IMG/VR virus record: IMGVR_UViG_3300025410_000010
Coordinates: 1 to 64,000 of that record
Source of the DNA: a virus
DNA length: 64,000 nt
Direction: 5' to 3' (one strand)
Each line of letters opens with the position of its first letter. Position 1 is the first letter of the stretch. Shown one piece after another: positions 2,070 to 52,578 of this stretch. The translations under genes were made by a program, and so were the position numbers. The notes beneath the pieces were generated by a model that was not told the origin of the DNA, made no database searches, and was given only the letters and a program-made list of their open reading frames with translations.

Positions 2070-2097
2070 ATAATAACACCTTTAAGAACTATGTCAA
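2070..2097 (-). promoter_or_regulatory. promoter, leaderless geometry, RNA ligase N-half
   Basis: TTGACA, 16 nt, TATTAT, then only 6 nt (AACACT) before the ATG at 2063. Transcription would start at or within 1-2 nt of the ATG. Confidence 0.75.
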
Positions 2098-9604: not shown

Positions 9605-10066
9605 CTACACTGTAATCACATCGTCAAATCCTTCGTCCTTGGATGGTTTTTCGATAGTTTTAATCATACTATTCATAACATAGTCTGGAATGTTTTTACC
9701 TGGACGACTTGCTAAACGTTTCTTAAGAACGTCCATATGTGGAATGGAAAAGAAGACAGCAATCTTTTTATAATCTTTTGGAACCATCTTTAATTTATTA
9801 CGACGACCGTTTTTTGTGAGATTTGTCTGATCCCAAATTAAATCCATTTTATCACTAAAGGCTTTGCGGGCAGTTTCAATAGCATGAGTATTTCCTGCCT
9901 TAACATAGTCATTGAAGACATCATTATACGTAGAACCCAGTCTCTCGGCTTGTTTCTCTATAAAATCATCCGAACTTGCTACAAGAGTATTGCTGTTCTG
10001 ATGCTTCTTTACCCAAGTACTCTTTCCAGAAGCAGGAACACCAACTAACATATACAATACGGGCAT
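9605..10066 (-). CDS. P-loop kinase, polynucleotide-kinase-like
   Basis: 153 residues. Walker A GVPASGKSTW at residues 8-17, SSDDF (about 31-35, phosphoacceptor-binding region) and IWDQTNLTKNGR (about 77-88), with FSIPHMDVLKKRLASRPGKNIPDYVM as lid. This is the arrangement of T4 Pnkp 5'-kinase-domain homologues in phages. With an Rnl1-type ligase in the same window, a role in RNA end repair is plausible. No phosphatase domain is present. Alternative: zeta-toxin-like kinase. Confidence 0.75.
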   Translation of the reverse strand: MPVLYMLVGVPASGKSTWVKKHQNSNTLVASSDDFIEKQAERLGSTYNDVFNDYVKAGNTHAIETARKAFSDKMDLIWDQTNLTKNGRRNKLKMVPKDYKKIAVFFSIPHMDVLKKRLASRPGKNIPDYVMNSMIKTIEKPSKDEGFDDVITV

Positions 10067-10171
10067 AATATTCTCCTAGCAACTATTAAAGCATATTATT
10101 TAATTTATTACAATATCTATCGAGCCAATAATAACGTTGTAAATTATCAAAAACACTTATATAGTAATGTC

Positions 10172-11122
10172 ATGAAACATTCTTATATTCTATTAGATCA
10201 TCAAAATCCTTTAAATAAAAACTGGTTTGTAGTTAACTGGTGTTTAGGTAATACCTGTAATTTTTCTTGTAGTTACTGTCCAGAAGGGTTACACGATGGT
10301 TCTAAAAAATGGCCAGACATTGGAGCAGTTAAAAACTTTGTTACTAAAGTTGTAAATCAAGTTGCTCCAAAAAAAGTTTATTTTGAATTTACTGGTGGTG
10401 AAGTTACATTGTATAAACACTTTACAGAACTTTGCCAACATGTAACATCGTTAGGAGCAAGGGTTGGACTTATTAGTAACAGTTCAAGAACTATTAAATG
10501 GTGGGAAAGTCATAAACAATATTTTGATCATGTATGTTTAAGTTTTCATCCAGAATATGGTAATCCAGAACATTTTTTAAATGTAATTAAACTTTTGCAT
10601 AATGATTTAAGAACACATGTTAATATTATGATGGCACCAGATAAATTTGATTTCTGTTTAGAAATTGCCAATAGAGCCGTTGAATTAGGAAATATATCAT
10701 TTGCTATCCAACCCCTAATACATGACTTTGGATCTGTTCTTTATGATTATACCCCTGAACAAAAAAATATCATTGACAAACAATGGGATTTGATAGGGAA
10801 AAAAATAAAACATACAAAACATTTTGATATCTATCGAGGAGCAATGAGCGAAGTTTATATGAGTGGTAGAAAAATTTCACTCGGTGCTCATGTCTTTATT
10901 AATGAAAAAACTAATGATTGGTCTGGTTGGAAATGTTGGGCAGGCGTAGAGCAAATAATTGTTGACATGGATGGTTTTGTTTATAGAGGTTGGTGTAAGG
11001 TTGGTGGTATTGTTGGAAGAATAGATGATCCTTACGTTCAAATACCTAAAGATCCTATCATATGTAATAAAACAATGTGTCATTGTAATTTCGATATTAT
11101 GTCTACTAAAGAGAGATTCTAA
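10172..11122 (+). CDS. radical SAM enzyme 1
   Basis: 316 residues. The [4Fe-4S] motif is CNFSCSYC (about residues 30-37), followed by the SAM-binding FTGGEVTLY (about 75-83). The C-terminus has further cysteines (CWAG, WCKVGG, CNKTMCHC) suggesting a second, twitch/SPASM-like cluster. First of four radical-SAM genes in a row; its stop overlaps the next start. Substrate unknown; the class modifies peptides, sugars or lipids. Confidence 0.85.
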   Translation: MKHSYILLDHQNPLNKNWFVVNWCLGNTCNFSCSYCPEGLHDGSKKWPDIGAVKNFVTKVVNQVAPKKVYFEFTGGEVTLYKHFTELCQHVTSLGARVGLISNSSRTIKWWESHKQYFDHVCLSFHPEYGNPEHFLNVIKLLHNDLRTHVNIMMAPDKFDFCLEIANRAVELGNISFAIQPLIHDFGSVLYDYTPEQKNIIDKQWDLIGKKIKHTKHFDIYRGAMSEVYMSGRKISLGAHVFINEKTNDWSGWKCWAGVEQIIVDMDGFVYRGWCKVGGIVGRIDDPYVQIPKDPIICNKTMCHCNFDIMSTKERF

Positions 11123-12426
11123 TGGATAGAGAAGAACGAAAGAAAACTATTTGCACTATTCCTTGGACTCATAGTGCTGTTTATCAAAATGGTGATTATG
11201 GTATTTGCTGTATGTGTGTTTACAATTCAGGTGGTAGATTATTTACAGAAGAAAAGGCTTCTAATATTGCAGAAACCGATATCGATGTTGTACGTAATCA
11301 TCCAACATATGTTGAACTCAGAAAGAGTATGTTAGCCGGAGAAAAACATCCTATCTGCAAATTGTGTTGGGACGAAGAAGACCTCGGAGGAAGACATTCA
11401 AAAAGACAAGGACAACAATTTTTCTATAAAGATACTTTAGAAAAAATATTAGACGAGGCAGATCCAACAGGACATATAGATAACGAAAAATTTCCTGTTC
11501 AATATTTAGATTTAAGACTTGGAAATCTTTGCAATCTTGCATGTCGCAGTTGTGGTCCAGATAATAGTAGTCTTTGGGTAGATTATCAATACGGTCGTCA
11601 ATTTACAATTAATGGCAGACCCGGAACTTATGAGATTATAGAAGAAAATAAGATTCTTAAAATTAAACAAGATGATTTCAATTACTGGAAAAAACCAGAA
11701 CTTGATGATTTCTTACATAAGGTTTTACCTACAGTTAATAGAATATATTTCACCGGTGGCGAGCCTTTGATTAATAAGAAACATTATGAAATTTTAGATT
11801 ATTGTATTGAAAACGACTTTGCTAAAAATATCGAGATAGAATATAATACAAACGGAACTACACTTAATAAAAATCTATTAGAACAATGGAGACAATTTAA
11901 ATTAGTTGATGTTTGCTGGTCCATCGATGCTATGGGAGATCTTGCACATTATGTTAGATATCCTAGTGATTGGAATGTCATTGAACGTAATTTAAGAATG
12001 TTTGATGAGATTGATATTCCGCATTTATATGGTAGCACTAATGCTACTATTAGTATTTTTAATATTATGCATCTACCTGAATTTGCTACTTGGTTTTATG
12101 AACAAAAATTTAAGAAATTTAGACCAAATCTTAACTGGCATCGTTTAGTATTTCCACGTTCTTATTGTGTGCAAACTATTCCACCATATGCTAAAAAAAT
12201 GATCACTGAGTATTATGATTCATACATTGCAAACAGTGATATACCGGATTTAGAATATAATATATATAATATTATTAAATTCATGAACCAACAGGATAAT
12301 TCAATATTCATGCCTGAGTTTAGAACACTACTCGATCGTCAAGATGAACTTCGAAATCACAATGTAAGGGATTATATTCCCTGGTTAGGAAAGGTATTAG
12401 ATAATCCGTCGTCATGGCTAAGTTAG
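11122..12426 (+). CDS. radical SAM enzyme 2 (twitch/SPASM type)
   Basis: 434 residues. The N-terminus has a cysteine cluster CTIPW...NGDYGICCMC, the SPASM/twitch element placed first, then CKLCWDEE. The core radical-SAM motif is CNLACRSC (about residue 136), with FTGGEPLI (about 213). This layout matches a radical-SAM clade I associate with marine T4-like phages. Overlaps the next gene by 13 nt. Confidence 0.85.
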   Translation: MDREERKKTICTIPWTHSAVYQNGDYGICCMCVYNSGGRLFTEEKASNIAETDIDVVRNHPTYVELRKSMLAGEKHPICKLCWDEEDLGGRHSKRQGQQFFYKDTLEKILDEADPTGHIDNEKFPVQYLDLRLGNLCNLACRSCGPDNSSLWVDYQYGRQFTINGRPGTYEIIEENKILKIKQDDFNYWKKPELDDFLHKVLPTVNRIYFTGGEPLINKKHYEILDYCIENDFAKNIEIEYNTNGTTLNKNLLEQWRQFKLVDVCWSIDAMGDLAHYVRYPSDWNVIERNLRMFDEIDIPHLYGSTNATISIFNIMHLPEFATWFYEQKFKKFRPNLNWHRLVFPRSYCVQTIPPYAKKMITEYYDSYIANSDIPDLEYNIYNIIKFMNQQDNSIFMPEFRTLLDRQDELRNHNVRDYIPWLGKVLDNPSSWLS

Positions 12427-14417
12427 ATCCAGATCTACTAAAACAAATCGAAGAGGCTAAAAGATTATTAACAGGTGATAGAGATCAAATTCTTAAAGAT
12501 CAAATTCTTAAAGATGAGATTTCTAAAAAACCCAATCATGCCAATTCTCATCTCGGTTCTCCTCTAACAAAAAATAATAAAGTTTCTTTTAAAAATCCCA
12601 AAGTCAAATGGTCAAAAACTAATCTATATAGAATATCTATGGTAATTGCTCCTTCTTGGGGAGTACTATTTCCTCCATATAATGTAGCAAAATTAACTTC
12701 ATTATTAAGAAAAGAAGGTTATAGTGTTAAGGCATATGATGTTAATATTGAATGTTATCATCTATTAACAGAATTAACAGGTGAAGACTATTGGAGAGGT
12801 GAAAGATTCTTTTATTGGGTTTTCAAAGATAATTTTGAAAAATACATATTTGATAAAATTAAACCGGTATTAGATAAAACAGTTAATGATATATTAAAAA
12901 GTAATGTTAAGGTTGTAGGCTTTAGTGTCTATAATACTAATGTTCATGCTACTATATACATGGCAAATAAAATAAGAGAACATAATAAAGATATTTGTAT
13001 TATTGTAGGTGGACCAGAAACTATTACAGGACTACATGCAATTTTAAAAAAAGATAAAGAATGTATCAATTATTTCTTTATAGGTGAAAGTGAAGAAAAT
13101 TTATTAAATCTTTTATCTAATCTTCCAAAAAAACTTCCTTCTAATGAAATAGTTGGATCTACTAAAAGTAGACTTTCTTTAGAGAAATATCCATATCCAG
13201 ATTATTCAGATTATAACCTAGAAAATTATTTGGTTTACGGAATTAGTATGGAAACTTCTCGTGGATGTGTTGCCCAATGTTCTTTCTGTGCTGAAACTTA
13301 TTTTTGGGATTTCAGGAGTTTAAAAGCAGAACGTGTGGTAGATGAAATAGAATATCAAGTTAATAAACATAATGTTTTGAGAGTATGGTTTGTAGATAGC
13401 CTTATCAATGGTAATATTAAAAACTTTGAGAGAATAGTTGATCTTATTATTGAAAGAAAATTGCATATAAATTGGAATAGTTATGCTAGATGTGATGGAA
13501 GAATGGATAAAGAATTCTTCAAGAAAATTAGACAAAGCGGAGGAGTTGGTCTTAGTTTTGGGGTCGAATCAGGAAGTCAAAAAATACTAGACGATATGAG
13601 AAAGAAAATAAAAATCTGGGAAATAGAAAATAATTTTAAAGACAGTTATGAATCTGGAATTCATACCCATGCTAATTGGATGATAGGATTTGCCACAGAA
13701 GAACCTATCGATCATTTTCATAGTATGCAACTTTTATTTAATATTAGAAAATATATGAAAGCAATTAGTCCTGGAGCTACTGCTGGAATTGCTGCTCAAA
13801 GTCATTCAGTTACTAATTATGAAGAATATAATATTATTGGAAATGGAACAAGTCCTTCTTATAACTCATTTTTAAAATCTTGGTCTACTAAAGATTTCAA
13901 AAATACAATAGTTCATAGATTTCTTAGACTTAAAATGTTTCATATTTGGTTACAAATAATAGATCAATATAGTGGTAGTATTATATCTAATTCTCATGGA
14001 TATAATATTAAAGATCATTATGAGTTTTCTTTTATAGAAAATTTAGAAATAGAAACTCAAGAACAAGATTTTAAAGTAAACTTTTTTCAATTCGACAATA
14101 ATCTTGAAGGATCTATTGCAAATGAATATGTTGCTTTTTGTTATATGTTGACAAAATACTTTAAAGGCGTAAAATTTCAGTTTAGGTGTGATCCTGACAA
14201 AGATATTTTATTGTTTGGAGATTTACTCGCAAGAAGATATACTACTAACGTATTATTTGAAATAGACGAAGATGATAATTTTCAATTAACTATCGATCAC
14301 GAATTAGAAGAATTCTTTAAAGAAAAGATAGTTAGAAAAGGTCATATAAGTGATTGGAAAACAGATAAAGAAGTTGTAAGAGAGACAATACATGAGCAAT
14401 ACAGAAAAAAACTTTAG
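12414..14417 (+). CDS. B12-binding-type radical SAM enzyme 3
   Basis: 667 residues. The N-terminal 240 residues form a B12-binding-like Rossmann domain (SVYNTNVHATIYMANKIREH, IIVGGPETI). The radical-SAM motif is CVAQCSFC (about residue 284), then VRVW-like strands and SFGVESGSQKILD. The last 200 residues are phage-specific. Such enzymes methylate or rearrange unactivated carbons; substrate unknown. It overlaps the next gene by 26 nt. Confidence 0.85.
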   Translation: MAKLDPDLLKQIEEAKRLLTGDRDQILKDQILKDEISKKPNHANSHLGSPLTKNNKVSFKNPKVKWSKTNLYRISMVIAPSWGVLFPPYNVAKLTSLLRKEGYSVKAYDVNIECYHLLTELTGEDYWRGERFFYWVFKDNFEKYIFDKIKPVLDKTVNDILKSNVKVVGFSVYNTNVHATIYMANKIREHNKDICIIVGGPETITGLHAILKKDKECINYFFIGESEENLLNLLSNLPKKLPSNEIVGSTKSRLSLEKYPYPDYSDYNLENYLVYGISMETSRGCVAQCSFCAETYFWDFRSLKAERVVDEIEYQVNKHNVLRVWFVDSLINGNIKNFERIVDLIIERKLHINWNSYARCDGRMDKEFFKKIRQSGGVGLSFGVESGSQKILDDMRKKIKIWEIENNFKDSYESGIHTHANWMIGFATEEPIDHFHSMQLLFNIRKYMKAISPGATAGIAAQSHSVTNYEEYNIIGNGTSPSYNSFLKSWSTKDFKNTIVHRFLRLKMFHIWLQIIDQYSGSIISNSHGYNIKDHYEFSFIENLEIETQEQDFKVNFFQFDNNLEGSIANEYVAFCYMLTKYFKGVKFQFRCDPDKDILLFGDLLARRYTTNVLFEIDEDDNFQLTIDHELEEFFKEKIVRKGHISDWKTDKEVVRETIHEQYRKKL

Positions 14418-15699
14418 ACTAAACAAGAGTAAAGTATTTTGTATGGCACCTTGGGTTAGTATTAATAATAACCCAAACGGTGATATACTTCCATGTTGTG
14501 TTGCTCGAGATGGAGTCTTTGGAAATCTTTATAAAGATAGTATCGAAGATATTTGGAACAACGAGAAATATAAAGAATTTAGAAAAAATATATTAGAAGA
14601 AAAAGAATGTCCCCAATGTGAAAGATGTTATAAAGAAGAAGAATGGGGAAGTATGTCTAGTTATAGGAAACACTGGAATCAACTATATTACAACAAATAC
14701 GATGAATTGATTCCTAACACCGAACCCGACGGACATTTAGATTCAATGAATCTCTATAGATGGGATTTTCGTTTTAATAATCTCTGCAATCTTGCTTGTG
14801 TTGGTTGTGGACCCGATTATAGTAGTAGTTGGGTTGAACTAAAAAAAAGAATGTGGCCAAATGATGCAGATGACTTTAAAATCTACAGTAGTAAAGAAAA
14901 TAAAGAAAATTTTATTAATACAATTAAAACACAGGCAAAAGTTGTAGATAATATCTATTTTGCAGGTGGGGAGCCATTATTACATCCCGAACATTATGAA
15001 ATACTTTCTGAATTAAATAGGTTAGAAAAATTAGATAAAGTAGAATTTATGTATAGCACTAACTTAACTAATCTTTATTACAAAGATCATTATATCGTTG
15101 ATTATTGGAATAAAATGAAAAGATGTAAAGTAATCGTTAGTATTGATGAGGTTGACCCAGAAAGATTACATTATATAAGATACCCCTCAGATAGAGATGC
15201 AATTGTTAATAACATTAAAATAATAAATCAATCATTAAATAGCGTTGATAAACATTGGTCTATTACTCCGACTTGGAATATTCTAAATGCACATAGAATG
15301 AAAGATATTATAGAATTTTTCTATTTGAACGATTTATTTCCTTATGCTTTCTACAATTCAGTTGCATGGGACGTTGATATAGCTACAATCATATTAATGC
15401 ATCCTAAACATTTATCGATATCTATTGCAACCCCAGAATGGAAAGAATATCTAAATCAAAAATTCAACGAATTTGAAGAATGGTATATTGATACTTTAAT
15501 TCCTTTGAAAAATTCTAATGTGAGAGTATTTGCTACAAAAATTATTAAAGGAAATATGGAAAAATTTAGAAACGCTCTAAAAGAATCTAATGAGAATAAA
15601 AATTTTAAATTCTGGTATCAAAGAATGGACGATGTTAGAGGTACAGACTTTTGTAAGACTTTTCCAGAACTTACTTGGCACATAGACCAATTATTCTAA
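14392..15699 (+). CDS. radical SAM enzyme 4 (twitch/SPASM type)
   Basis: 435 residues, clear paralogue of enzyme 2: FCMAPW...NPNGDILPCC at the N-terminus, CPQCERC, CNLACVGC (about residue 131), FAGGEPLLHP (about 195), and a shared RYPSD segment. It ends against a convergent gene (overlap 9 nt), closing the radical-SAM operon. Confidence 0.85.
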   Translation: MSNTEKNFRLNKSKVFCMAPWVSINNNPNGDILPCCVARDGVFGNLYKDSIEDIWNNEKYKEFRKNILEEKECPQCERCYKEEEWGSMSSYRKHWNQLYYNKYDELIPNTEPDGHLDSMNLYRWDFRFNNLCNLACVGCGPDYSSSWVELKKRMWPNDADDFKIYSSKENKENFINTIKTQAKVVDNIYFAGGEPLLHPEHYEILSELNRLEKLDKVEFMYSTNLTNLYYKDHYIVDYWNKMKRCKVIVSIDEVDPERLHYIRYPSDRDAIVNNIKIINQSLNSVDKHWSITPTWNILNAHRMKDIIEFFYLNDLFPYAFYNSVAWDVDIATIILMHPKHLSISIATPEWKEYLNQKFNEFEEWYIDTLIPLKNSNVRVFATKIIKGNMEKFRNALKESNENKNFKFWYQRMDDVRGTDFCKTFPELTWHIDQLF

Positions 15700-16038
15700 A
15701 ACAGATAAAACTTTAATTAATTTGTGATTGGATCCGTAACGATATTTCCAATGCTTTCTATTGTCGAATATTTTTCCACTGAGAACCATTACAGATTCAA
15801 ATTCATTCATAGCATCGATTAGTTGATCCATATCTTCATATGTAACATGAAACTCAACTGTTCTTAATTTAGGTCTTATAGAGTCATCTCTAAAAAGTTT
15901 TATCCAAAGATCATAATCAACTCCAGATAGACTTACCTTATCTCTAGTCTTTGACTTTTCGATAATAACTCCATGCCTCTTCATTGCCGCAGTAAAGATA
16001 CGACGTGCTTGTTTAGTTGTTGGAAGAGAAACAGTCAT
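15691..16038 (-). CDS. hypothetical phage protein
   Basis: 115 residues, MTVSLPTTKQARRIFTAAMK..., ending KLIKVLSVLE. The ATG at 16038 is preferred to 16068, because a GTGGAG site lies upstream and the overlap with the TilS-like gene disappears. AGTAAATA lies 4 nt before the ATG. Function unknown. Confidence 0.6.
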   Translation of the reverse strand: MTVSLPTTKQARRIFTAAMKRHGVIIEKSKTRDKVSLSGVDYDLWIKLFRDDSIRPKLRTVEFHVTYEDMDQLIDAMNEFESVMVLSGKIFDNRKHWKYRYGSNHKLIKVLSVLE

Positions 16039-16045
16039 TATGTAT

Positions 16046-16657
16046 TTACTCCACTTCTTCGGCAGCAAGACGTTTAGCGATTATCTTATAGAATCCTGGA
16101 TTGACTTTTAATACAGAAGGAAGGACACTACATCTGATGTGGTTACGTCTAAAAGAATAATCGTTGTTACTTGGATCTTCTATCCAAATAATTAAATTAT
16201 TCAATGCCCACTCTGCTAATGTATCTTTTTTGTTTAATCTAAATGGACGAATACAATTAGCATGTCTATATGGAATAGTATAGTCTTTACCATTACACAT
16301 ATTAAACACATAAGATTCTAAACAATCATCTAGGTGATGTCCAAGAACAATAGTTTGGTCTTGTTCTGTTAGCCAAGCATATCTTTCATTACGCCAATGT
16401 TCTTCTTTACTTACACCCTTAGGTCTATAATTCTTAATATGTCCTAATTTATAGGGAATGTTAGCCTGTTTACAATATGAGATTACAAAGTCAGCAGCCT
16501 TCCCACCAAACTTAGTTCCGTGATCAAAATTATAAGCAGTGACATTGTGATTGCGACGAAGGAAGTTTAAGATAACCATACTATCGATGCCGCCACTTAC
16601 AGCAACACCAACATCTCGTGGAATCTTTCCTTGTACCTTAATCACCCTTTGCTCCAT
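16046..16657 (-). CDS. TilS-like PP-loop ATPase
   Basis: 203 residues. PP-loop SGGIDS at about residues 20-25, GHHLDDCLES (about 106) and DPSNNDYSFRRNHIR (about 159) are the N-terminal catalytic signatures of tRNA(Ile)-lysidine synthetase. The C-terminal tRNA-binding domains of cellular TilS are missing, giving about half its length. It may modify a phage or host tRNA; the tRNA(CAT) gene at 40222 is a conceivable substrate. Confidence 0.8.
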   Translation of the reverse strand: MEQRVIKVQGKIPRDVGVAVSGGIDSMVILNFLRRNHNVTAYNFDHGTKFGGKAADFVISYCKQANIPYKLGHIKNYRPKGVSKEEHWRNERYAWLTEQDQTIVLGHHLDDCLESYVFNMCNGKDYTIPYRHANCIRPFRLNKKDTLAEWALNNLIIWIEDPSNNDYSFRRNHIRCSVLPSVLKVNPGFYKIIAKRLAAEEVE

Positions 16658-17012
16658 ATAGACTTGCTAATACTATAAACTTATCCCAAGCATCTTGTGC
16701 GGGTTTAGGCATATCTTTTTGATCAAGTATAACTCGCATCCATATCTTACTTCTTGGCATAGAAGGAGGTTGTACTCCAAATCTTCTAGGTTGATGTATT
16801 TTACCCGACTTCCATAATGTTGTTAATATATTTTTCAATTTATCCTTATCATAGTCGTACCAAGGCCCCATATGTTGATACTCGGTGATAAGTTGATCTA
16901 TACTATCAAGATCAAAGTAAGTTCTTCCTATGATAAGAAGTATATCATCAGGATCAACTTTATCTTCCATTATATCAGATATACATCTCGATATACTAAA
17001 TCCTATTAACAT
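16638..17012 (-). CDS. conserved T4-like phage protein
   Basis: 124 residues beginning MLIGFSISRCISDIMEDKV, with IIGRTYFDLDS; resembles a small protein seen in T4-like marine phages. ATG 17012 is chosen over 17069 because AGAGG lies just upstream. Overlaps both neighbours by about 20 nt. Confidence 0.65.
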   Translation of the reverse strand: MLIGFSISRCISDIMEDKVDPDDILLIIGRTYFDLDSIDQLITEYQHMGPWYDYDKDKLKNILTTLWKSGKIHQPRRFGVQPPSMPRSKIWMRVILDQKDMPKPAQDAWDKFIVLASLYGAKGD

Positions 17013-17742
17013 TGAGCCTCTCTTTAGATATTTTTCTAATTTGATTGTACAGTCTAGAAGCAAATTCAATATTCGATCTAGGACCCGGGTGCATGTTATC
17101 TCTAGCTACATCTAATTTAGTGTCATGATACATGATATCGGCATTAAAGTCTATCTGTTGTATGTTCAATAAATTCATATATGATATATCTATATCATTA
17201 ACAGCAGGGTGGAATATCATATAACTGTCTAATTTTTCTAACAACAAATTTAACATTACAAAATCTTTTTCAGTTTGATAAGATATAAATTCTTCTTTTA
17301 AAAATGTTTTATTAAGCTTATCATACATCGGAGTTGGAGTATTAGCAGTAAAATAATCTCCAACCCATCTTTCTCTTCTTTCAATATTAGGAAGATAACA
17401 AATTACAATTTGTGGATGTAACATATCCCCATAATGATAAAGATATTTGACAATATGATCTAATCCACTTGCTGCGGCAGATAGATTCCAGAAAGGCATA
17501 AGTCCAAAATCATCACAAAGGTTTTTATGAATAATCTTAGGCCATGTATTTTCTAATGATAAACCAACTCCTTCCGAATAACTACATCCAGTGAATACTA
17601 CCCTTAACGGATGTTTCTCCCAGTGATCAAAGTCGTCACATCTAAAACCATAATTGTTGAATTTATATTTTATATGTTTTCCTTTGCTTGGATCATATTG
17701 ATCCGTTGCAAGAACAATGTCTTGAGTATTTGCTCGATACAT
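16996..17742 (-). CDS. SGNH-hydrolase-like protein, GCS type (A1)
   Basis: 248 residues. Putative nucleophile block VFTGCSYSEGVGL (about residues 49-61) and C-terminal Asp-His block ARDNMHPGPRSN, as in SGNH/GDSL esterases. KFNNYGFRCDDF precedes the nucleophile, shared with 20419-21195 and 21185-21976. No signal peptide. Likely an esterase or acyltransferase acting on a glycan or lipid; substrate unknown. Confidence 0.75.
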   Translation of the reverse strand: MYRANTQDIVLATDQYDPSKGKHIKYKFNNYGFRCDDFDHWEKHPLRVVFTGCSYSEGVGLSLENTWPKIIHKNLCDDFGLMPFWNLSAAASGLDHIVKYLYHYGDMLHPQIVICYLPNIERRERWVGDYFTANTPTPMYDKLNKTFLKEEFISYQTEKDFVMLNLLLEKLDSYMIFHPAVNDIDISYMNLLNIQQIDFNADIMYHDTKLDVARDNMHPGPRSNIEFASRLYNQIRKISKERLNVNRI

Positions 17743-17768
17743 AAAAGGTTCTTTTAAGAACTGAGTAA

Positions 17769-19067
17769 CTATAGTTTCTCTCCAGACTCGAATCCACGGA
17801 ACCTTAAGAAACGAGGGAATCGCAAACTATAAGTTCCATCTTGATTTTGAGTAATAGCATCTGCTCTTACTTCCACAACGCTGCCCAGTAAAAGGCTGCG
17901 AGAGGACCAATAACTACTACGATTATCATCAGTAAATCCGCTACCCACATTAACCCTGATAAATTTCCCATCATCTTCTCCTTCACAAACTAATGCACCA
18001 AGTCGTCCTTCATTGCGACCTGTGCCTTCTTCAACATCCTTAACAGCAAGACTAACTTCAATAAAAGGTTTCTGTTTGAGCCAAGCAGTTGACCTTTTAC
18101 ATTCATAAGGAGCATCAACGTCTTTAATCATAATACCTTCATAACCATTTTCAATAGCATAAGCATTAATCTCGGCAAAACGTTTCTTACCTTCCTCGTT
18201 GTCAAGATTTACAAATTCAAATCCAAGTTGCTCAATGGAATCGAAATTGTATGCTTTGAGGAATTGACTAAGTAGGTTGCTGCGATTAATTTGAGCAACG
18301 TTGCTCCTACCTTCTTCAAATTCTTTAAGAGTTAACCAATCAAAAAGATATAATGTAGCATCTTGTGCTTGAACATTATCTTTTCGATGTACTTGTTTCA
18401 TTAAGTCCTGAAATGAACTACTCATAATCTCGCCGTCAAAGACCATAGGTTCATTTATGTCTTTAGCCATTTTTGTAAATTCGTTTCGAATATGTGGGAA
18501 GTTAACAAGTTCTTTTCCGTTGCGGCTAAACTGATCAACACGCCCATTAGGATATACAATAGTAATAATCCTAACGCCATCCAATTTGACTTCAATTTGT
18601 TTGTGTCCTGTAATCTTTGATTCATGGTTTGCTCCATCATGTGCTAGTTGACAAGTGAATACTGGAACCATAAGATGTGGTTTGTCTGCTTTCTTAGCAG
18701 CACTGTTGATACTCTTATCACTAATACCACAACGTAAATCTTTAATGAGGATACGTCGGTACCAACCATTCCATTGATCCTTAGTAGCAGTAGCCATTAA
18801 TTCCGCAAGATACATTCTAGCCATATTACCAGTAATGTTTCTGTGAATGAATTGATCAACTGTTGTTCTAAAATCATTCCAAAGCAATCCGGGTCCGTCT
18901 TCTGTTGATTCTGGAAGTTGCTTAATTCCAAAAGTAATCTTAGCATCATATGCTAGACGACATCCCGCAAAGAATTCCATATTGTTAGCATTTGCTTCAC
19001 GCAATAGAATTGCTTCTTTAGCAAGACGACTATTATCGGATTCGAGTTCTTGGATAATCTGATGCAT
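17769..19067 (-). CDS. ATP-dependent DNA ligase (T4 gp30-like)
   Basis: 432 residues. Adenylation motif I is EVKLDGVRI (Lys about residue 160), motif III VFDGEIMSS, motif IV EGIMIKD, motif V WLKQKPF, and an OB-fold follows (AVKDVEEGTGRNEGRLGAL). Slightly shorter than T4 gp30. It seals nicks in phage DNA replication and recombination. Own promoter at 19086-19113. Confidence 0.9.
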   Translation of the reverse strand: MHQIIQELESDNSRLAKEAILLREANANNMEFFAGCRLAYDAKITFGIKQLPESTEDGPGLLWNDFRTTVDQFIHRNITGNMARMYLAELMATATKDQWNGWYRRILIKDLRCGISDKSINSAAKKADKPHLMVPVFTCQLAHDGANHESKITGHKQIEVKLDGVRIITIVYPNGRVDQFSRNGKELVNFPHIRNEFTKMAKDINEPMVFDGEIMSSSFQDLMKQVHRKDNVQAQDATLYLFDWLTLKEFEEGRSNVAQINRSNLLSQFLKAYNFDSIEQLGFEFVNLDNEEGKKRFAEINAYAIENGYEGIMIKDVDAPYECKRSTAWLKQKPFIEVSLAVKDVEEGTGRNEGRLGALVCEGEDDGKFIRVNVGSGFTDDNRSSYWSSRSLLLGSVVEVRADAITQNQDGTYSLRFPRFLRFRGFESGEKL

Positions 19068-19085
19068 GGTTCCTCACTTTCCTAT

Positions 19086-19113
19086 ATTATATACAATGTA
19101 GGATTTGTGTCAA
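19086..19113 (-). promoter_or_regulatory. promoter of DNA ligase
   Basis: TTGACA, 16 nt, TATAAT on the minus strand, followed by a purine-rich leader. Confidence 0.75.
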
Positions 19114-19114
19114 C

Positions 19115-20035
19115 CTATTCAACCCGAGTTGATTTTAAATATTGGTATGGAGATAATTTGTTTACTATTTCTAAATTGCTTAAACCATAACATAATAAAC
19201 ACTCACGATTTAATTGTGCAACAGGTATCTGTCCTAAAGACATTTTAGGTCCTCTTAATATACCCAAATTATTAAAAAAATCTTCTTTGCTTTCAAACCA
19301 TTTCCAGAAATCTTTTTCCATTTCTGTAACTTTCCATTCTGGTAATGCTGCTCCAAATTTAATCATCCAATCAGCAGACCAGTGATCCTGTGGACGAATA
19401 TTATCATTTCCTATATCTTCATCCTGATTTAAAAATACATCAAGGATTGGCTTACCAACTACACAATAATTAATATAAACTGTTCCAAACGTATACCTAT
19501 ATGTAAACAATTTGTATTCGTCATTAGTTAATTTAAATCTAGGTTTTGGTTCATATGTTCCCACAATCATGGCATTTGGATGTTCTGTAAGTTTTTCTAA
19601 TTCTTTATTAAGTTGCTTATATTCATATTCATGAACTAAAAGATTAAGACGCTCGATTGCTTTTTTAACATCATCTGTAGCATTAAGATACCATTCTAAT
19701 GGACTTTCGATAGGCCCTCGAAGTCTTTCAAAAAAGACATGCATCTCATTCATTGTTTGTTGGTCCATATCTGGACTTGCTTTTAATGTAACTCTTCCGG
19801 GATACGTTTTGTTTATTATATCGATTTGTTCATTTAATTTCTTAGCAAAGTGTTCCTCATCCTTGCCATTATTGGGCCAATATGTAAATCTATCTTGTTC
19901 ATAAAATGGATAATTGTTATTGATTTCTTTTGCCCATGATTGCGATAAATTATCTTTTTGAATATCAAATTCACAAATTACTGAATCTATATCATCTTTA
20001 TGTTTAGATAGTTCCACAATAAATTTTTTATACAT
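19115..20035 (-). CDS. conserved hypothetical phage protein
   Basis: 306 residues, starting MYKKFIVELSKHKDDID; ATG 20035 has GGAG upstream and overlaps the previous stop. The middle is helical (ELEKLTEHPNA); YRYTFGTVYINYCVVGKPILDVFLNQDED looks like a beta core. I associate this type with T4-like marine phages but know no function. Confidence 0.7.
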   Translation of the reverse strand: MYKKFIVELSKHKDDIDSVICEFDIQKDNLSQSWAKEINNNYPFYEQDRFTYWPNNGKDEEHFAKKLNEQIDIINKTYPGRVTLKASPDMDQQTMNEMHVFFERLRGPIESPLEWYLNATDDVKKAIERLNLLVHEYEYKQLNKELEKLTEHPNAMIVGTYEPKPRFKLTNDEYKLFTYRYTFGTVYINYCVVGKPILDVFLNQDEDIGNDNIRPQDHWSADWMIKFGAALPEWKVTEMEKDFWKWFESKEDFFNNLGILRGPKMSLGQIPVAQLNRECLLCYGLSNLEIVNKLSPYQYLKSTRVE

Positions 20036-20220
20036 TAATATGTATCTCCGAGGGGTTTCCCTTGTAGATCCATAATCCAATGTTTACCAGTTTTCTGCTC
20101 CATTTCATAAGAATGCTCAATACCTTTTTGGGTAACACTATAAACTTGACCTACCCAATAAGAAAATATTAACAATCCGATAATAACATATCCTTGAATT
20201 TCTTTTTGTCTTGCAGTCAT
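20035..20220 (-). CDS. small single-pass membrane protein
   Basis: 61 residues with a membrane segment at about residues 10-29 (GYVIIGLLIFSYWVGQVY), N-terminus basic. Starts by ATGA overlap with the BFD-like gene. Unknown function. Confidence 0.65.
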   Translation of the reverse strand: MTARQKEIQGYVIIGLLIFSYWVGQVYSVTQKGIEHSYEMEQKTGKHWIMDLQGKPLGDTY

Positions 20221-20393
20221 TGCTTCTGATCCAACATAGAATTAATTTCTTTTACTATACTTTTGGCACAAGTGGCACATTCGGGCGTCCAGTTGAGTTC
20301 TTTTAATATTGTCTTGACAGTTGGATTTGGAAGACGATCCATGCATTCCTTAATCTTTCGGGTGCATACTGTGCGACATGAACATATTATCAT
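20217..20393 (-). CDS. BFD-like [2Fe-2S] mini-protein
   Basis: 58 residues. Cysteines at 4, 6, 39 and 42 give CxC-x32-CxxC, the cluster motif of bacterioferritin-associated ferredoxin domains, with the helical spacing of that fold. Length is the minimal BFD domain. Ends by ATGA overlap with the next gene. The ATG lies 6 nt from the -10 and lacks a Shine-Dalgarno. Possible roles are electron transfer to the radical-SAM enzymes or iron mobilisation; both are inference. Confidence 0.75.
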   Translation of the reverse strand: MIICSCRTVCTRKIKECMDRLPNPTVKTILKELNWTPECATCAKSIVKEINSMLDQKQ

Positions 20394-20399
20394 ACTCTT

Positions 20400-20427
20400 A
20401 TTTAAACATCATTTTTTATTATGTCAA
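20400..20427 (-). promoter_or_regulatory. promoter, leaderless geometry, BFD-like gene
   Basis: TTGACA, 16 nt, TTAAAT, then 6 nt and the ATG at 20393. It overlaps the 3' end of the upstream SGNH gene. Confidence 0.6.
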
Positions 20428-21195
20428 GCCTAACTTTTCTGATATATTTGGCCAAAAAATTTCAAAAGCAGTATTGGCAAATAACTCATTTGATTTTGGC
20501 CCGGCATGCATATTGTCCCTAGCAAGATCCAATTGCATTATGAATAATTCTTTATAGATAAAATTCGAAAGATTAAGATTTTCTACTTTATACTCCTCAA
20601 ACTGTCTCGAATATAAAAAATGTGCATCTATTTCTTCACACATTAGATTAATCATAACTAAATTTTTTTCAGTTTGATAATTAACCAATTGCTCATTCGT
20701 TAAAAAATCTGTATCTTTTTCTCTTTCCAGAGACCAAACACTCCAGCGATCTTCATGCCATCGTTCACGTCTAACAGAACTAGGAATGTAACATATTATA
20801 ATTTGTGGACGTAATAGATCCTTTAAATTATAAAGATAACGAGTCATATGATCCAACCCAGTTCCACCTGATGCAATACTCCAATAAGGTATTTCTTGAT
20901 TTAATTCTTTACAAATCATGCTATGTAACTTTTTGGTCCATAGGTCTTCTAGCGGAAGTCCAATGCCTTCAGTCATACTGCATCCTGCAAATAAAATTCG
21001 ATAAAGATACTTTTCCCAACTATCAAAGTCATCACATCGAAATCCATAATTATTGTATTTGTAAGTAATATCGTTTGGCCCATAAGGAACTAAGTCTTTG
21101 ACTTTTGTATAATTCTCTTCAGTATCCATGGGCATCCACTGAAATGTTTTGTTGGCAACAATGTCTCTTCTGATATCTAAAAATTCAGGAATCAT
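20419..21195 (-). CDS. SGNH-hydrolase-like protein, GCS type (A2)
   Basis: 258 residues. KYNNYGFRCDDF, then nucleophile block LFAGCSMTEGIGLPLEDLW, and Asp-His block LARDNMHAGPKSN. Same family as 16996-17742 and 21185-21976. Start overlaps the upstream paralogue stop by 11 nt, so the pair is co-translated. Confidence 0.75.
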   Translation of the reverse strand: MIPEFLDIRRDIVANKTFQWMPMDTEENYTKVKDLVPYGPNDITYKYNNYGFRCDDFDSWEKYLYRILFAGCSMTEGIGLPLEDLWTKKLHSMICKELNQEIPYWSIASGGTGLDHMTRYLYNLKDLLRPQIIICYIPSSVRRERWHEDRWSVWSLEREKDTDFLTNEQLVNYQTEKNLVMINLMCEEIDAHFLYSRQFEEYKVENLNLSNFIYKELFIMQLDLARDNMHAGPKSNELFANTAFEIFWPNISEKLGLT

Positions 21196-21976
21196 TTAAT
21201 TTTTCTCTTATGTAAGGATAAAAATCATTAAACATTCTTTCAGCAAATAATTTATTTGATTCCGGACCAGCATGCCACCCATCTCTCCCAAGATCAATAA
21301 ATTCCAATCGATGATCGACATTCTTAAATTTTGAAAATGTTATGTTACTAAGATCATAATCGGAATCGATTTTTGAATAGAGAAATAAACTATCCCATCT
21401 ATTCATAAGGAGATCAATAAATGATAAATTCTTTTCGGTTTGATATCTAATATATTCTTCTTTGAGAAATATCTTAGCAGTATTCTTATCTTCCTTTGTA
21501 TAAGTTAACCAAGGTCCCCAATGGTCTTCACTCCATCGCTCTCTTCTCTCAAATCTAGGTAATAAAGATATTACTATCTGTGGACGTAATTCATTGCCTT
21601 CCAAATATAAATGTTTTACTAAATGATCCATACTGGCACCACTATGTGCAATGCTCCAAAAAGGTATTGGACCCAATTGATCACAAAGCATGTTGTGAAA
21701 TAGTTTTGCCCAGGTTTTCTCTAGAGGAATACCCACTCCTTCGGTTTCACTGCATCCTGCAAATAAAATCCTAATTGGATGATTTTTCCAGTTACTAAAA
21801 TCATCACAACGAAATCCTCTATTATTAAATTTGTAAACAACTTCTCCAGGGTTATATTGAACTTGTGGATTGTCCTTTACTTTATTGTACTGTTCTAAAG
21901 TATCTGTATAAAACCATCCATGAGTCGTATTGTATATTTTGAATCGATCAGAATTTAAAAATTGATGTTTGAGCAT
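21185..21976 (-). CDS. SGNH-hydrolase-like protein, GCS type (A3)
   Basis: 263 residues. KFNNRGFRCDDF, LFAGCSETEGVGIPLEKTW, and LGRDGWHAGPESN give the same three blocks as its paralogues. It is divergent from the porin gene, with about 43 nt between starts. Confidence 0.75.
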   Translation of the reverse strand: MLKHQFLNSDRFKIYNTTHGWFYTDTLEQYNKVKDNPQVQYNPGEVVYKFNNRGFRCDDFSNWKNHPIRILFAGCSETEGVGIPLEKTWAKLFHNMLCDQLGPIPFWSIAHSGASMDHLVKHLYLEGNELRPQIVISLLPRFERRERWSEDHWGPWLTYTKEDKNTAKIFLKEEYIRYQTEKNLSFIDLLMNRWDSLFLYSKIDSDYDLSNITFSKFKNVDHRLEFIDLGRDGWHAGPESNKLFAERMFNDFYPYIREKLNDS

Positions 21977-46903: not shown

Positions 46904-47140
46904 TTATAAGTAGTCTACTTCTAGATGTTCCATATAAGCAATAAAGTAATAAGCATCATCTGCGTATTCAAAAGCAATCACGTAATTATTATTACTAGCA
47001 TAAGCAACGTGTGATTCGTCAAAGGGCTGATCTTTAGTTGTCAACCAATCACGTATTTGTTGTGGAATAATAATGTTTTTATTCATCTCCACTGTATAGA
47101 TATAGTGGGAAAAGGGTCTAGTATATGCTTTCATGGTCAC
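46904..47140 (-). CDS. small protein, related to the LRFS-tail family
   Basis: 78 residues; IRDWLTTKDQPFDESHVAYA and DDAYYFIAYMEHLEVDYL parallel the family core. ATGA-coupled to the SGNH gene upstream. Confidence 0.6.
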   Translation of the reverse strand: MTMKAYTRPFSHYIYTVEMNKNIIIPQQIRDWLTTKDQPFDESHVAYASNNNYVIAFEYADDAYYFIAYMEHLEVDYL

Positions 47141-47931
47141 CCAAAATCTGGTGCAGCAGCAAATTCACGTTCTATAAATTTTGGGCTCTGTATTGTTTTA
47201 TGAGTAATAATACCTTCAACAAACTCTGTTTTAAAGTCTAGAGGAATCTTATAAGATATATTATTCACTATTTTGTTAGTTAGTATAGCATGATTAGTCC
47301 AAGTCAAATGATTGTATTTTCCATCCATACCAATTATATCATGTATACGTTCAAAGTACCATTTTTCATATTCATTACTATGTACATTAGTTAAGGGCAT
47401 ATTGGGCCAGTGAAAGTTATTAAATTTATGTCTATAATCTGTATTCAACCATTCGTATTCGTAGTACATAAGTGGTAGCAGTATAGTATGTAAGTTTTTT
47501 TCTTTAGTTAAGTGATCAAGATTGTATAAGAAGTCTATACAGTAAGTTTCGTATAATTCCTCATGATTTAGATGTATCAAGTAGTATTTTACAGCCTTCA
47601 TAAACTCTGCGCTTGTATGTTGTTCTGATATTGATTTTTTATTATTAAGCATAGTATTATTCGGTTTATCTTTAATAAACCATCTTCTAAACAAATTACT
47701 TATACCCACTATCAAAATGTCATTATCTTGTATATTATCGCGTTCTTGTCTAAACATATGATATGTATAATCTGGGCTCGAACCTGGGCATCCATGATTA
47801 ACAACTGATTGATTTAGTTGTTCTCCAATTGCTCTAATCCAAGGTTTAATACCTCGTTTCTTTTGTTCTGATTTATAATTTAAATTTTTAAAATCGCCGA
47901 TAAAGCTATCGCCAAACGCCCATATAGTCAT
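47137..47931 (-). CDS. GDS-type SGNH-like protein (B1)
   Basis: 264 residues. Nucleophile block WAFGDSFIGD, oxyanion Gly region GCPGSSPDYTYHMFRQERDN, IVGISN before RRWF, and C-terminal DGKYNHLTWTNH. All SGNH elements appear present, so it is probably active as an esterase or acyltransferase. No signal peptide. Confidence 0.75.
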   Translation of the reverse strand: MTIWAFGDSFIGDFKNLNYKSEQKKRGIKPWIRAIGEQLNQSVVNHGCPGSSPDYTYHMFRQERDNIQDNDILIVGISNLFRRWFIKDKPNNTMLNNKKSISEQHTSAEFMKAVKYYLIHLNHEELYETYCIDFLYNLDHLTKEKNLHTILLPLMYYEYEWLNTDYRHKFNNFHWPNMPLTNVHSNEYEKWYFERIHDIIGMDGKYNHLTWTNHAILTNKIVNNISYKIPLDFKTEFVEGIITHKTIQSPKFIEREFAAAPDFG

Positions 47932-47935
47932 GTTA

Positions 47936-48709
47936 TTATTTACTAGATCTATCTACAAAAGTATCCCAAGCAAAACCAAAGAATTCATCGGTATAATCTT
48001 GTTCATCTTTAAATCCTATATATTTTTCGACAAATCCTTGTGTTAGATCAATATCAGTACCTTGATTGATATGATTTATAATTTTATCTGCTAATATAAT
48101 ATGATTTGATTTAATCATATGATTAGGTCTTGGGTCTCCACGTTTATCATAAGCAAGACTTTCGTAGTAGTTTTTAAATTCGTCAGTCATTTCTTTTAAG
48201 TATAGATCGTCGTTCAACAGTCCTTTTGCTATATGTACCTTTGGTATTTTATTTTTAAAGTTTTCTAATATTTCTTCAGTATCTATACAAACGCATAGCA
48301 CCATAGTTTTAAGATTCAATTTTTCACTAAGTTCATTAACTGTATAGAGGAAATTAAAGAAGTTAATTCTATGTGGAACATAGTTAGTATCCAAGAATGC
48401 TCTATATCGTTTAATACTTTGAGTTTCGCTATACTCTCTTCCAAGATCGTCAGCAGCAAGATCAGGGTTACATTCAAAGAACCATCTTCTTGCTATCACA
48501 GTAGTTGTTATAATCAGTATATCGCCATTTTGTATATTATCACGTTCTCTGTGGAATTCGTTGTAAGTATATTCTAAATTAGTTCCACAAATTCCAAAAG
48601 TTTTCAAATCTGTATTATAATGATCAGCAATGATTTCCATATATTGTTTTTGATTTTCAGATTTATCAATAAGCGTAGCAAAGCTATCGCCAAACACCCA
48701 AACGGTCAT
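47936..48709 (-). CDS. GDS-type SGNH-like protein (B2)
   Basis: 257 residues from ATG 48709, placed by alignment (MTVWVFGDSFA) and a TTTGGAG site. GICGTNLEYTYNEFHRERDN, RRWFFE, and DPRPNHMIKSNH. Catalytic blocks are intact apart from the Asn block (TTT). Confidence 0.75.
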   Translation of the reverse strand: MTVWVFGDSFATLIDKSENQKQYMEIIADHYNTDLKTFGICGTNLEYTYNEFHRERDNIQNGDILIITTTVIARRWFFECNPDLAADDLGREYSETQSIKRYRAFLDTNYVPHRINFFNFLYTVNELSEKLNLKTMVLCVCIDTEEILENFKNKIPKVHIAKGLLNDDLYLKEMTDEFKNYYESLAYDKRGDPRPNHMIKSNHIILADKIINHINQGTDIDLTQGFVEKYIGFKDEQDYTDEFFGFAWDTFVDRSSK

Positions 48710-48784
48710 TATAAACTCCAAATAATATTGTGTTTTAATTAAATTTGTGTTATATTTATAAGCACTAATATGAGGAGCAATTTT

Positions 48785-49186
48785 ATGGATCAATTGCGGA
48801 ATGTATTCAATACCATGTATAGTTGGGATGGTTCATTAGGTCGATTAGAGTATTTCATGTATGGTTTATTATCGTCGTTAGTCAGTTGTATTTTATTAGC
48901 CTTGATCAATCCAGTATTAGATTCAGAAGGCTCTTTCTTTGTAGTATTAAGTATATCTTTACTGTTATTAGCCTTAAGCAACGCCGCATATACATCAGTA
49001 GTGTTAGTAATCAAGCGTCTACGTTCCATGGGGCTTGACACTGTACATATATGGTGGATAAGTGGATTATGGTTAGTAACGAGTATACATAGTTATGGGG
49101 AGCCCGAGAGTATTGTGACTTATTGTTTAGTTGCGATTGATTTGTTAGTATCTTTGTGGTTACTCTTTACGCCCGCAAAAAAGTAA
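48785..49186 (+). CDS. DUF805 membrane protein
   Basis: 133 residues, four membrane helices, with GSLGRLEYFMYG at the start and VIKRLRSMG in the middle, the two DUF805 signatures. GAGGAG site. Function of the family is unknown; it interrupts the SGNH array on the opposite strand. Confidence 0.8.
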   Translation: MDQLRNVFNTMYSWDGSLGRLEYFMYGLLSSLVSCILLALINPVLDSEGSFFVVLSISLLLLALSNAAYTSVVLVIKRLRSMGLDTVHIWWISGLWLVTSIHSYGEPESIVTYCLVAIDLLVSLWLLFTPAKK

Positions 49187-49282
49187 TTAAATGCATATAT
49201 ATTATGCATAGAAATTTTTGTTTAAAAACCGCGCTACCGCTTCGCGGCTGTGCGGGGGCTTGGGTTCCGAGGAGAGAGACTG
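49187..49282. other. intergenic with inverted repeats
   Basis: ATGCATA/TATGCAT (about 49193-49211) and CCGCG/CGCGG (about 49231-49249) inverted repeats follow the DUF805 stop. Possible termination or attenuation before 49283. Confidence 0.4.
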
Positions 49283-49462
49283 ATGTGGTTATACCATGAG
49301 GATGATGATTGGGTTGAGTGTGAGTTATTGCATGAATTTTTAGAGCACTATCAAATTAAGTATCATGACAGTGATTTTCATCATATAGAAAAAGTAGTAT
49401 CTAGGGATGATATAAAGGAAGTAGTGGATTGTGGGAAGTATCAATTAACAACCAATGGATAG
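49283..49462 (+). CDS. 59-residue acidic protein
   Basis: MWLYHEDDDWVECELLHEFL..., GAGGAG site. WVECELL...IKYHD is repeated as WIECEVL...IVYFD in the next gene. Confidence 0.6.
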   Translation: MWLYHEDDDWVECELLHEFLEHYQIKYHDSDFHHIEKVVSRDDIKEVVDCGKYQLTTNG

Positions 49463-49584
49463 AGTGTGAAGTTCTTTCTGATTTAGGGGAGGATTTTCGT
49501 ATTGTTTATTTTGATCCTATTCTTAATCTTGATCGTGAGCGCATAGTCAAGAAAACACAAGTCAGACATCGTCAACCAAATTGA
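49429..49584 (+). CDS. 51-residue paralogue, TTG start
   Basis: (L)WEVSINNQWIECEVLSDLGE..., TTG start with AAGGAAG 7 nt upstream, overlapping the previous gene by 34 nt and the convergent SGNH gene by 13 nt. Confidence 0.5.
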   Translation: MWEVSINNQWIECEVLSDLGEDFRIVYFDPILNLDRERIVKKTQVRHRQPN

Positions 49585-50336
49585 TGGAAGTTCCAAAGTT
49601 CTTCATTTAAGTGTGCATTATATAATTCATTTATACTGTATTCTTTGTTAGTTAAATTGTGTTCATTCAGCACATATTTGACAAAAGTATCAAACACAAT
49701 GGGTTCTTGATTTTTTATATTATTCACGATCTTATCTGCCAGTATGATATGATTTGATTTAATCATATGATTGGGTCTAAGATCATTTCTAGCATATTTT
49801 AATAATCCGTAACTCTGTATAAATTTTAAATCAAATTCCTTATAGCTTACATCAAAAAGATGTCCGTTGCTGAAGTTTATATATGGATAATCTGCTTTAC
49901 CTTGTTTAATTATATTATCTATAACTTCAAAGCAAGGAATTACAATAATATGACAGTTTAATTTTTTTCTTAAGTATTCTAAATTTTCCACAAAGTTAAT
50001 AAGATATGTAGGTATTATCTCGTTATTATTTGCGAGATATAGTGCGTAATATTTGTAAGCATCATTAGTATTTTGATAGATATCGACAGCATTAGCAGGT
50101 TTATCTTTAAAGAACCAACGACGATTAGTATCAGTTAGTGCCACGATTACAACATCGTTATTTTTAATATATTCTCTATTAACATTAAATTGATAATATG
50201 TATATTCTATAGCTGATCCACCTTGGCCAAAGCAATTCAAATTTTGATTTAATTTTTGTGCAATCAAGAGGGGCCAAACGTTTCCCCTATTAGGTTGTAT
50301 ATCTACAAAGCTATCACCAAACACCCAAACAGTCAT
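49572..50336 (-). CDS. GDS-type SGNH-like protein (B3)
   Basis: 254 residues. VWVFGDSFVD, GQGGSAIEYTYYQFNV, RRWFFKDKPAN, and DLRPNHMIKSNH. Catalytic Ser, Gly and Asp/His positions are kept. Confidence 0.75.
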   Translation of the reverse strand: MTVWVFGDSFVDIQPNRGNVWPLLIAQKLNQNLNCFGQGGSAIEYTYYQFNVNREYIKNNDVVIVALTDTNRRWFFKDKPANAVDIYQNTNDAYKYYALYLANNNEIIPTYLINFVENLEYLRKKLNCHIIVIPCFEVIDNIIKQGKADYPYINFSNGHLFDVSYKEFDLKFIQSYGLLKYARNDLRPNHMIKSNHIILADKIVNNIKNQEPIVFDTFVKYVLNEHNLTNKEYSINELYNAHLNEELWNFHQFG

Positions 50337-50347
50337 GTGTTATTTAA

Positions 50348-50355
50348 AATAAATA
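50348..50355 (+). promoter_or_regulatory. late-like box 4 nt from the 50360 ATG
   Basis: AATAAATA then CATT and the ATG: candidate leaderless late transcript. Confidence 0.5.
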
Positions 50356-50359
50356 CATT

Positions 50360-50707: not shown

Positions 50708-50710
50708 ATA
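50703..50710 (+). promoter_or_regulatory. late-like box 4 nt from the 50715 ATG
   Basis: AATAAATA then CTAT and the ATG; same geometry as at 50348. Confidence 0.5.
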
Positions 50711-50714
50711 CTAT

Positions 50715-52577: not shown

Positions 52578-52578
52578 T

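Follow-up and report, generated by a model that had tools for sequence, protein, structure and literature searches.

A replaceable four-gene radical-SAM cassette in a T4-like phage and its genetic links to sugar chemistry

Radical-SAM (rSAM) genes have been recorded in environmental phages before. As many as 12 rSAM genes, together with Fe-S assembly genes, have been described in T4-like genomes from the environment (PMC5332604). These genomes share with the phage studied here the presence of multiple rSAM genes in one T4-like virus, but they were read in terms of Fe-S metabolism and a glycan context was not described there. A second precedent is the 'host recognition cluster' of pelagimyophages, a hypervariable, glycosyltransferase-rich island by the tail-fibre genes of these T4-like phages (PMC7029224). 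In that work rSAM cassettes were noted as a difference between two pelagimyophage genomes, although no functional link between rSAM enzymes and sugars was drawn, and the cassette described below lies at a separate site, beside a DNA ligase gene. Our partial coverage of the literature returned no paper functionally tying rSAM-rich phages to sugar genes. While such phages were known before, the sugar link and the allele-like swapping appear to be new. The enzymes concerned are common, with genes resembling the NF033640 rSAM subfamily found in at least 600 places in a scan of viral contigs.

The stretch analysed here (the window, positions 1-64000) is part of a 95,384-bp IMG/VR virus record. Terminase, sheath, tube, UvsX and other T4-type genes, recognized by inspection, identify a T4-like myovirus, and the closest public terminase is that of Pseudomonas phage PA5oct and its relatives (about 287 kb), at 57% identity. 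Since the record terminates inside collagen-like fibre genes, it is probably incomplete, a fragment of a larger genome.

The operon and its four enzymes

The ORF list and profile searches place four intact rSAM ORFs at 10172-15699 on the plus strand of the window, and these are the only rSAM matches in the 95,384-bp record:

10172..11122, plus strand: rSAM1, 316 aa, radical-SAM core with a C-terminal twitch-like Cys motif (PF04055, 3.3e-10)
11122..12426, plus strand: rSAM2, N-terminal SPASM/twitch radical-SAM enzyme (NF033640, 2.9e-100, over cut-off)
12414..14417, plus strand: rSAM3, 667-aa B12-rSAM (PF02310, 1.2e-9; PF04055, 3e-14)
14392..15699, plus strand: rSAM4, second N-terminal SPASM/twitch radical-SAM enzyme (NF033640, 1e-93, over cut-off)

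The overlaps between successive ORFs are 1, 13 and 26 nt, and PF04055 scores above its curated cut-off in all four proteins, in agreement with the original prediction of four overlapping rSAM genes in tandem. The CxxxCxxC motif is invariant across the family alignments of all four enzymes, as are the auxiliary Cys residues, so the rSAM assignment is not due to chance; the identity of the genes and the integrity of their motifs are established. Against the 170-bit curated cut-off of NF033640 (N_Twi_rSAM), which applies over the whole model, rSAM2 scores 336 bits (residues 7-424) and rSAM4 315 bits (residues 13-428). Both belong to this subfamily, whose model itself defines no function. They had been recognized from the sequence as paralogous twitch/SPASM-type enzymes, and the paralogy is old: they are only 26% identical, and rSAM4 is closer to its relatives in other phages (about 45-52% identity) than to rSAM2. 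In rSAM3, PF02310 (150-232) lies N-terminal to PF04055 (279-434), the arrangement of the B12-type enzyme that had been anticipated, and 20 viral relatives share 41-49% identity with it. Conversely, rSAM1 had been taken for a 'simpler' enzyme and is not minimal, as its family alignment shows an invariant C-terminal Cys set of the twitch/SPASM kind (C255, C275, C298, C303 and C305). Its family is virus-enriched, with 88 viral loci found; tblastn returned no match in isolate phages. Apparent insertions in some of these loci, where matches were 230-330 bp too long, were rejected as the neighbouring cluster-1 gene, whose product has an N-terminal twitch resembling the C-terminal twitch of rSAM1.

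The best fold matches of the predicted rSAM1 model (pLDDT 91.7) are BlsE, SkfB, EpeE and viperin. BlsE (Z 17.3) and SkfB (Z 17.1) tie, so fold comparison cannot separate sugar from peptide substrates. Distant profile matches connect the SPASM/twitch part to BtrN (3e-6) and rSAM3 to AprD4 (8e-8).

For the operon, the expected lack of a precursor peptide was borne out. It is coding from end to end, with no gaps, about 105 nt free upstream and a convergent gene overlapping its 3' end, which leaves no room for such a peptide. A Pfam search of the operon gave no PqqD/RRE domain either. Taking a precursor in the operon and/or a PqqD/RRE domain as the mark of RiPP maturation, we found neither for the cassette and rejected a RiPP system encoded within it. 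The suggested BFD-like electron supplier at 20217 had no Pfam match and no PDB sequence match, and was dropped.

Replacement of the cassette in a sister phage

One viral contig, L167, shares both flanks of the operon with the window, and comparison with it delimits the cassette:

9605..10066, minus strand: AAA_33 P-loop kinase-like gene, the left conserved flank (83% identical in L167)
10081..15689, plus strand: replaceable rSAM cassette, with approximate ends where nucleotide similarity to L167 stops (blastn of flanks)
15691..19067, minus strand: right conserved flank (125-aa gene, TilS-like gene, 143-aa gene, SGNH-like gene, DNA ligase)
16046-16657, minus strand: TilS-like PP-loop gene of the right flank
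16996-17742, minus strand: SGNH-like gene of the right flank
17769-19067, minus strand: DNA ligase of the right flank
16996..21976, minus strand: three SGNH-like paralogues (16996-17742, 20419-21195, 21185-21976), 42-46% identical by self-BLAST

The flanks of the two phages are 70-90% identical in nucleotide sequence, as far as 10081 on the left and 15689 on the right, with zero alignment in between. At the protein level the ligase is 84%, the kinase 83% and the TilS-like protein 61% identical, and the right-flank proteins as a whole 60-84%, except for the SGNH-like gene at 16996. The L167 cassette holds three NF033640-like enzymes and one rSAM1-like enzyme that are non-orthologous to those of the window (26-35% identity) and reach 36-45% to their best Bdellovibrionota proteins. 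It also contains an SGNH-like DUF6071 gene, a nucleotide-sugar epimerase/GDP-mannose-dehydratase-type enzyme (PF01370, 4.8e-43; PF16363, 5e-35) and one unknown gene; no precursor peptide or RRE was found in it. Whole gene sets have thus been replaced between conserved flanks. This is allelic replacement, as at serotype loci, and the presence of a different rSAM block with a sugar-making enzyme at the identical site suggests that these viruses swap sugar-customising kits. Sugar-pathway genes lie inside the cassettes of L167 and of four further viruses, L016-L019, whereas the window's own cassette lacks them. Absence of the cluster from close relatives at no fitness cost had been named as a refuting observation. 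The window's own cassette is indeed absent from L167, yet a different rSAM cassette occupies the same site.

Both cassettes have a GC content near 0.296 and the flanks 0.33-0.38; among 292 sliding windows, that of the present phage is the lowest-GC 5.6-kb stretch (0.296). In the rSAM1-type protein tree the L167 gene groups with four Bdellovibrionota genes (100/100) and the window's gene falls inside the main phage group, and the starred branches force at least three changes between phage and bacterium. A second variable site exists in another phage lineage, between protein clusters 23 and 29/30 and just downstream of the same ligase family, where about five alternative rSAM sets were found.

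Linkage to sugar, virion and flagellin genes

Across this phage, related viruses and bacteria, the cassette enzymes are genetically linked to glycosyltransferases, a sugar dehydrogenase or epimerase, carbamoyltransferase, SGNH-like genes, virion genes and bacterial flagellin. The record itself encodes several candidates for sugar chemistry outside the cassette:

2094-3101: GT4 (PF00534, 1.6e-19)
47137..54733, minus strand: eight further SGNH-like paralogues, 24-42% identical
56195..57694, minus strand: NodU/CmcH-type carbamoyltransferase (PF16861, 1.3e-48; PF02543, 9e-43)
62126..62791, minus strand: glycosyltransferase family 25 (PF01755, 5.8e-21)

The three SGNH-like paralogues at 16996..21976 show GxSxxxG and DxxH motifs by eye, with no Pfam match, and are possible partners of the cassette enzymes. 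Three of the eight further copies have a late-promoter-like TAAATA 10-11 nt before their start. TATAAATA itself showed no enrichment in the window. The phage encodes an OprB porin, and no ORF in the 95-kb record has four or more predicted TM segments, so that there is no sign of a flippase or polymerase.

Further ties to sugars come from related viruses. Our neighbourhood survey covered 80 of the 88 viral rSAM1 loci, 73 of them usable for the 5' neighbour. In 41 of the 73 a cluster-0 gene lies directly 5' of rSAM1, in most cases no more than 10 nt away or overlapping it, and in 7 the two form a single fused protein, as at L076:8330-10936. The cluster-0 family has no Pfam match. Its predicted structure (pLDDT 89.5) shows a GT-A domain at residues 6-162. 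In Foldseek the best match is a PBCV-1 glycosyltransferase (probability 1.00), and the leading matches are mostly glycosyl- or nucleotidyltransferases with a GT-A fold; with modest Z values (7-9), cluster 0 is a predicted GT-A-fold protein. L016-L019, with rSAM3 relatives at 43-44% identity, carry in one operon two NF033640-like enzymes, rSAM1, an Asp/Asn hydroxylase, a B12-rSAM and an SGNH-like gene, as well as a UDP-glucose/GDP-mannose dehydrogenase and a carbamoyltransferase, both confirmed by Pfam. The marine virus contig MH319727, from a single cell, encodes two SGNH-like proteins and a carbamoyltransferase 45% identical to that of the window, one base after which an NF033640-like gene starts. 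Among cultured phages, Vibrio phage QD01, which grows on the laboratory strain V. natriegens Vmax, has three rSAM genes close to one annotated as a heptosyltransferase gene; at 23% identity its enzymes are distant from those of the window. Carbamoyltransferases occur in 15 of 23 rSAM1-bearing or sister virus records and in 138 of 50,697 public phage records, a comparison that we set aside as a test because genome size and lineage confound it. Clusters 26 and 46 (sulfotransferase-like) and families 3 and 5 (glycosyltransferase-like) were named by eye only; Pfam searches of L073 (cluster 26), L032 (cluster 3) and L046 (cluster 5) gave no significant match. The original prediction had pointed to a glycan or lipid target. 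Its glycan half is supported by the fusion and operon linkage to glycosyltransferases, the L167 epimerase, the UDP-sugar dehydrogenase and the carbamoyltransferases. These links do not single out LPS, peptidoglycan or lipid, and the positions of the genes in relatives point to virion fibres no less strongly.

At many related loci, long structural ORFs and a gene of roughly 400 aa that matches a virion-protein PHROG precede the rSAM1 operon, and in L023 the cassette lies ahead of the tail sheath. The T4-type late motif TAAATA precedes 21 genes in the present record (3 expected), including head, sheath, fibre and three SGNH-like genes. It is absent before the window's rSAM operon, which is also remote from the fibre genes. 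Restricting the counts in related loci to intergenic DNA, we found the motif upstream of 24 of 24 distinct fibre genes (expected 0.43), 18 of 33 copies of the small gene heading the glycosyltransferase operon (expected 0.68) and 6 of 18 rSAM1 genes with an intergenic space of their own (expected 0.36). A first count before rSAM1 (23/45) was rejected, since most of these motifs lay inside the upstream glycosyltransferase coding region.

Two close relatives emerged from 84,980 species genomes, and a profile search of 368 Bdellovibrionota genomes yielded 28 loci in 24 genomes. At L143 (on the same contig as L111), two flagellin genes flank rSAM1, an N-twitch rSAM and an SGNH-like gene. L151 encodes two flagellins (PF00669, PF00700) and, besides rSAM1, two NF033640-like enzymes, another rSAM and a carbamoyltransferase. 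L152 has almost the window's set, with a carbamoyltransferase, two rSAM1-like, two NF033640-like and one B12-rSAM gene, and at L112 four overlapping rSAM genes form an operon in the vicinity of Wzm/Wzt-like and GT4 genes; a GT2 is present at L146 and L147. Neighbouring flagellin genes occur at 2 of the 28 loci, which on its own is not significant. Five of the 24 genomes (G315, G107, G108, G283 and G284) have a carbamoyltransferase no further than about 8 kb away, making four independent cases as G283 and G284 are near copies, against about 0.2 expected near 28 loci by a hand calculation from about 33 matches in about 80 Mb.

A sugar-tailoring role and its rivals

We propose that the four genes form an exchangeable sugar-tailoring cassette whose acceptor is most probably the phage's own fibre or tail protein, a reading to which we give an even chance. 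Their substrate would be a sugar linked to a nucleotide or a protein, processed in the cytoplasm of infected cells and attached by glycosyltransferases that the phage encodes. The two twitch/SPASM-type enzymes and rSAM1 might oxidise, epimerise or deoxygenate a sugar carbon, and rSAM3 could C-methylate the sugar, while acyl and carbamoyl groups may be put on or taken off by SGNH-type enzymes and carbamoyltransferase, whose genes lie at other places in the genome. By analogy with flagellin, the acceptor would most probably be a fibre or tail protein made late in infection, with no lipid carrier involved in its decoration; the lack of multi-pass membrane proteins in the record, together with the flagellin precedent, favours such cytoplasmic, carrier-free glycosylation. 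Exchange of whole cassettes at a fixed site would then change the decoration chemistry much as serotype loci do. We infer the substrate, the reactions, the fibre acceptor and any change of recognition or advantage brought by swapping from the linkages above.

The same enzymes might instead tailor sugars of host surface glycans such as LPS or capsule, for example excluding other phages or altering adsorption. Because the window's operon lies away from the fibres and without a late motif, this is a live rival, though an unlikely one in our view. The bacterial four-rSAM operon beside a Wzm/Wzt-like exporter and GT4 fits a cell-surface polysaccharide, the phage-encoded porin shows an interest in the outer membrane, and the idea matches the view taken of pelagimyophage glycosyltransferases (PMC7029224). 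However, in most related phages the rSAM1 operon sits in late virion-gene regions, late expression would be poor timing for exclusion, and flippase-like membrane proteins were not found in the record. Somewhat less probable still is direct modification of a protein or peptide, be it epimerisation, cross-linking or methylation of a fibre or virion protein, or of a RiPP encoded elsewhere. SPASM and twitch domains are frequent in peptide maturases, the rSAM1 fold matches include SkfB and EpeE, Asp/Asn hydroxylases occur in some related loci, and fibre and flagellin genes are close by in relatives. Both the window and L167 cassettes, however, lack a precursor and RRE, and the fusions of rSAM1 to a GT-A-fold domain and the sugar epimerase and UDP-sugar dehydrogenase inside related cassettes speak for sugars.

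That the enzymes are viperin-like, antiviral or metabolic, and act on nucleotides, tRNA or a host small molecule is improbable. rSAM1 does match viperin and pVip models (E about 1e-15) and has a TilS-like neighbour gene, but the match is limited to residues 20-125, the common rSAM core, and its 57.1 bits fall far below the 180-bit curated cut-off of NF038283. With an extra auxiliary Cys set in rSAM1 and neighbour genes that vary as glycan genes do, a viperin identity was rejected as similarity in the core only.

The sugar-tailoring reading offers a testable role for an enzyme group that is among the most frequent in aquatic phages to lack an explanation. If true, phages carry out radical chemistry on sugars and exchange it in modular form, with consequences for host range, for immunity between phages and for the origin of rare sugars, and carbohydrate chemistry would gain a new group of rSAM enzymes from the cassettes. 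Among known enzymes, the sugar-acting BtrN, SpeY, BlsE and AprD4 are likewise twitch/SPASM or B12 rSAMs, at an identity to the cassette too low for safe substrate inference. The Bdellovibrionota loci L143, L151, L152 and L112 have the same families (rSAM1, N-twitch rSAM, carbamoyltransferase, SGNH-like genes, glycosyltransferases and, in places, B12-rSAM), but they are chromosomal and more divergent than the phage cassette, with products that are also uncharacterised. More tentatively, and at less than even odds, a group of T4-like and jumbo phages might carry interchangeable rSAM sugar-editing cassettes, giving unusual, rapidly switchable fibre glycans and exchanging genes with Bdellovibrionota. 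On this equally tentative extension, the cassette family of these widespread, largely uncultured phages could be a virus-borne counterpart of flagellin and O-antigen diversification.

Twitch-domain position and radical SAM density

Among the 80 viral loci containing rSAM1, the first gene of the four-enzyme radical SAM cassette (L031-L110; genes of clusters 1 and 2), the twitch domain lies at opposite ends of neighbouring enzymes, being C-terminal in rSAM1, with a similar one N-terminal in the adjacent cluster-1 enzyme. This arrangement suggests a circular permutation inside a single operon. In G014, the 90-kb virus record of locus L092, we found 15 radical SAM matches, approximately one per 6 kb.

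Genes at loci L167 and L114

L167, 1-3352: thiolase and 3-hydroxyacyl-CoA dehydrogenase/enoyl-CoA hydratase genes, adjoining DNA ligase
L114, 12131-15383: fibre genes encoding collagen-like GPTGPTG/GWTGPT repeats

The two enzymes encoded by the sister phage contig L167 constitute a fatty-acid oxidation pair. Thr-rich repeats such as those in the fibre genes of L114, a further locus, are candidate O-glycosylation acceptors.

Porin, SGNH-like and Tlde1-domain genes of the window

22020-23399, + strand: outer-membrane porin, OprB carbohydrate-selective family (PF04966, 9.5e-34)
28720-29559, + strand: Tlde1-domain protein (PF10908, 9.9e-29)
47137-54733, - strand: eight tandem SGNH-like paralogues, 24-42% identical

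The phage-encoded porin has a signal-peptide-like N terminus, and its carriage is out of the ordinary for a lytic-type phage. The SGNH-like array represents a large expansion, in which a late-promoter-like TAAATA is located 10-11 nt 5' of three of the eight paralogues. The Tlde1-domain protein possibly has a role in lysis or at the cell wall; Tlde1 is an L,D-transpeptidase-like domain that acts on peptidoglycan and is known from secreted effectors.
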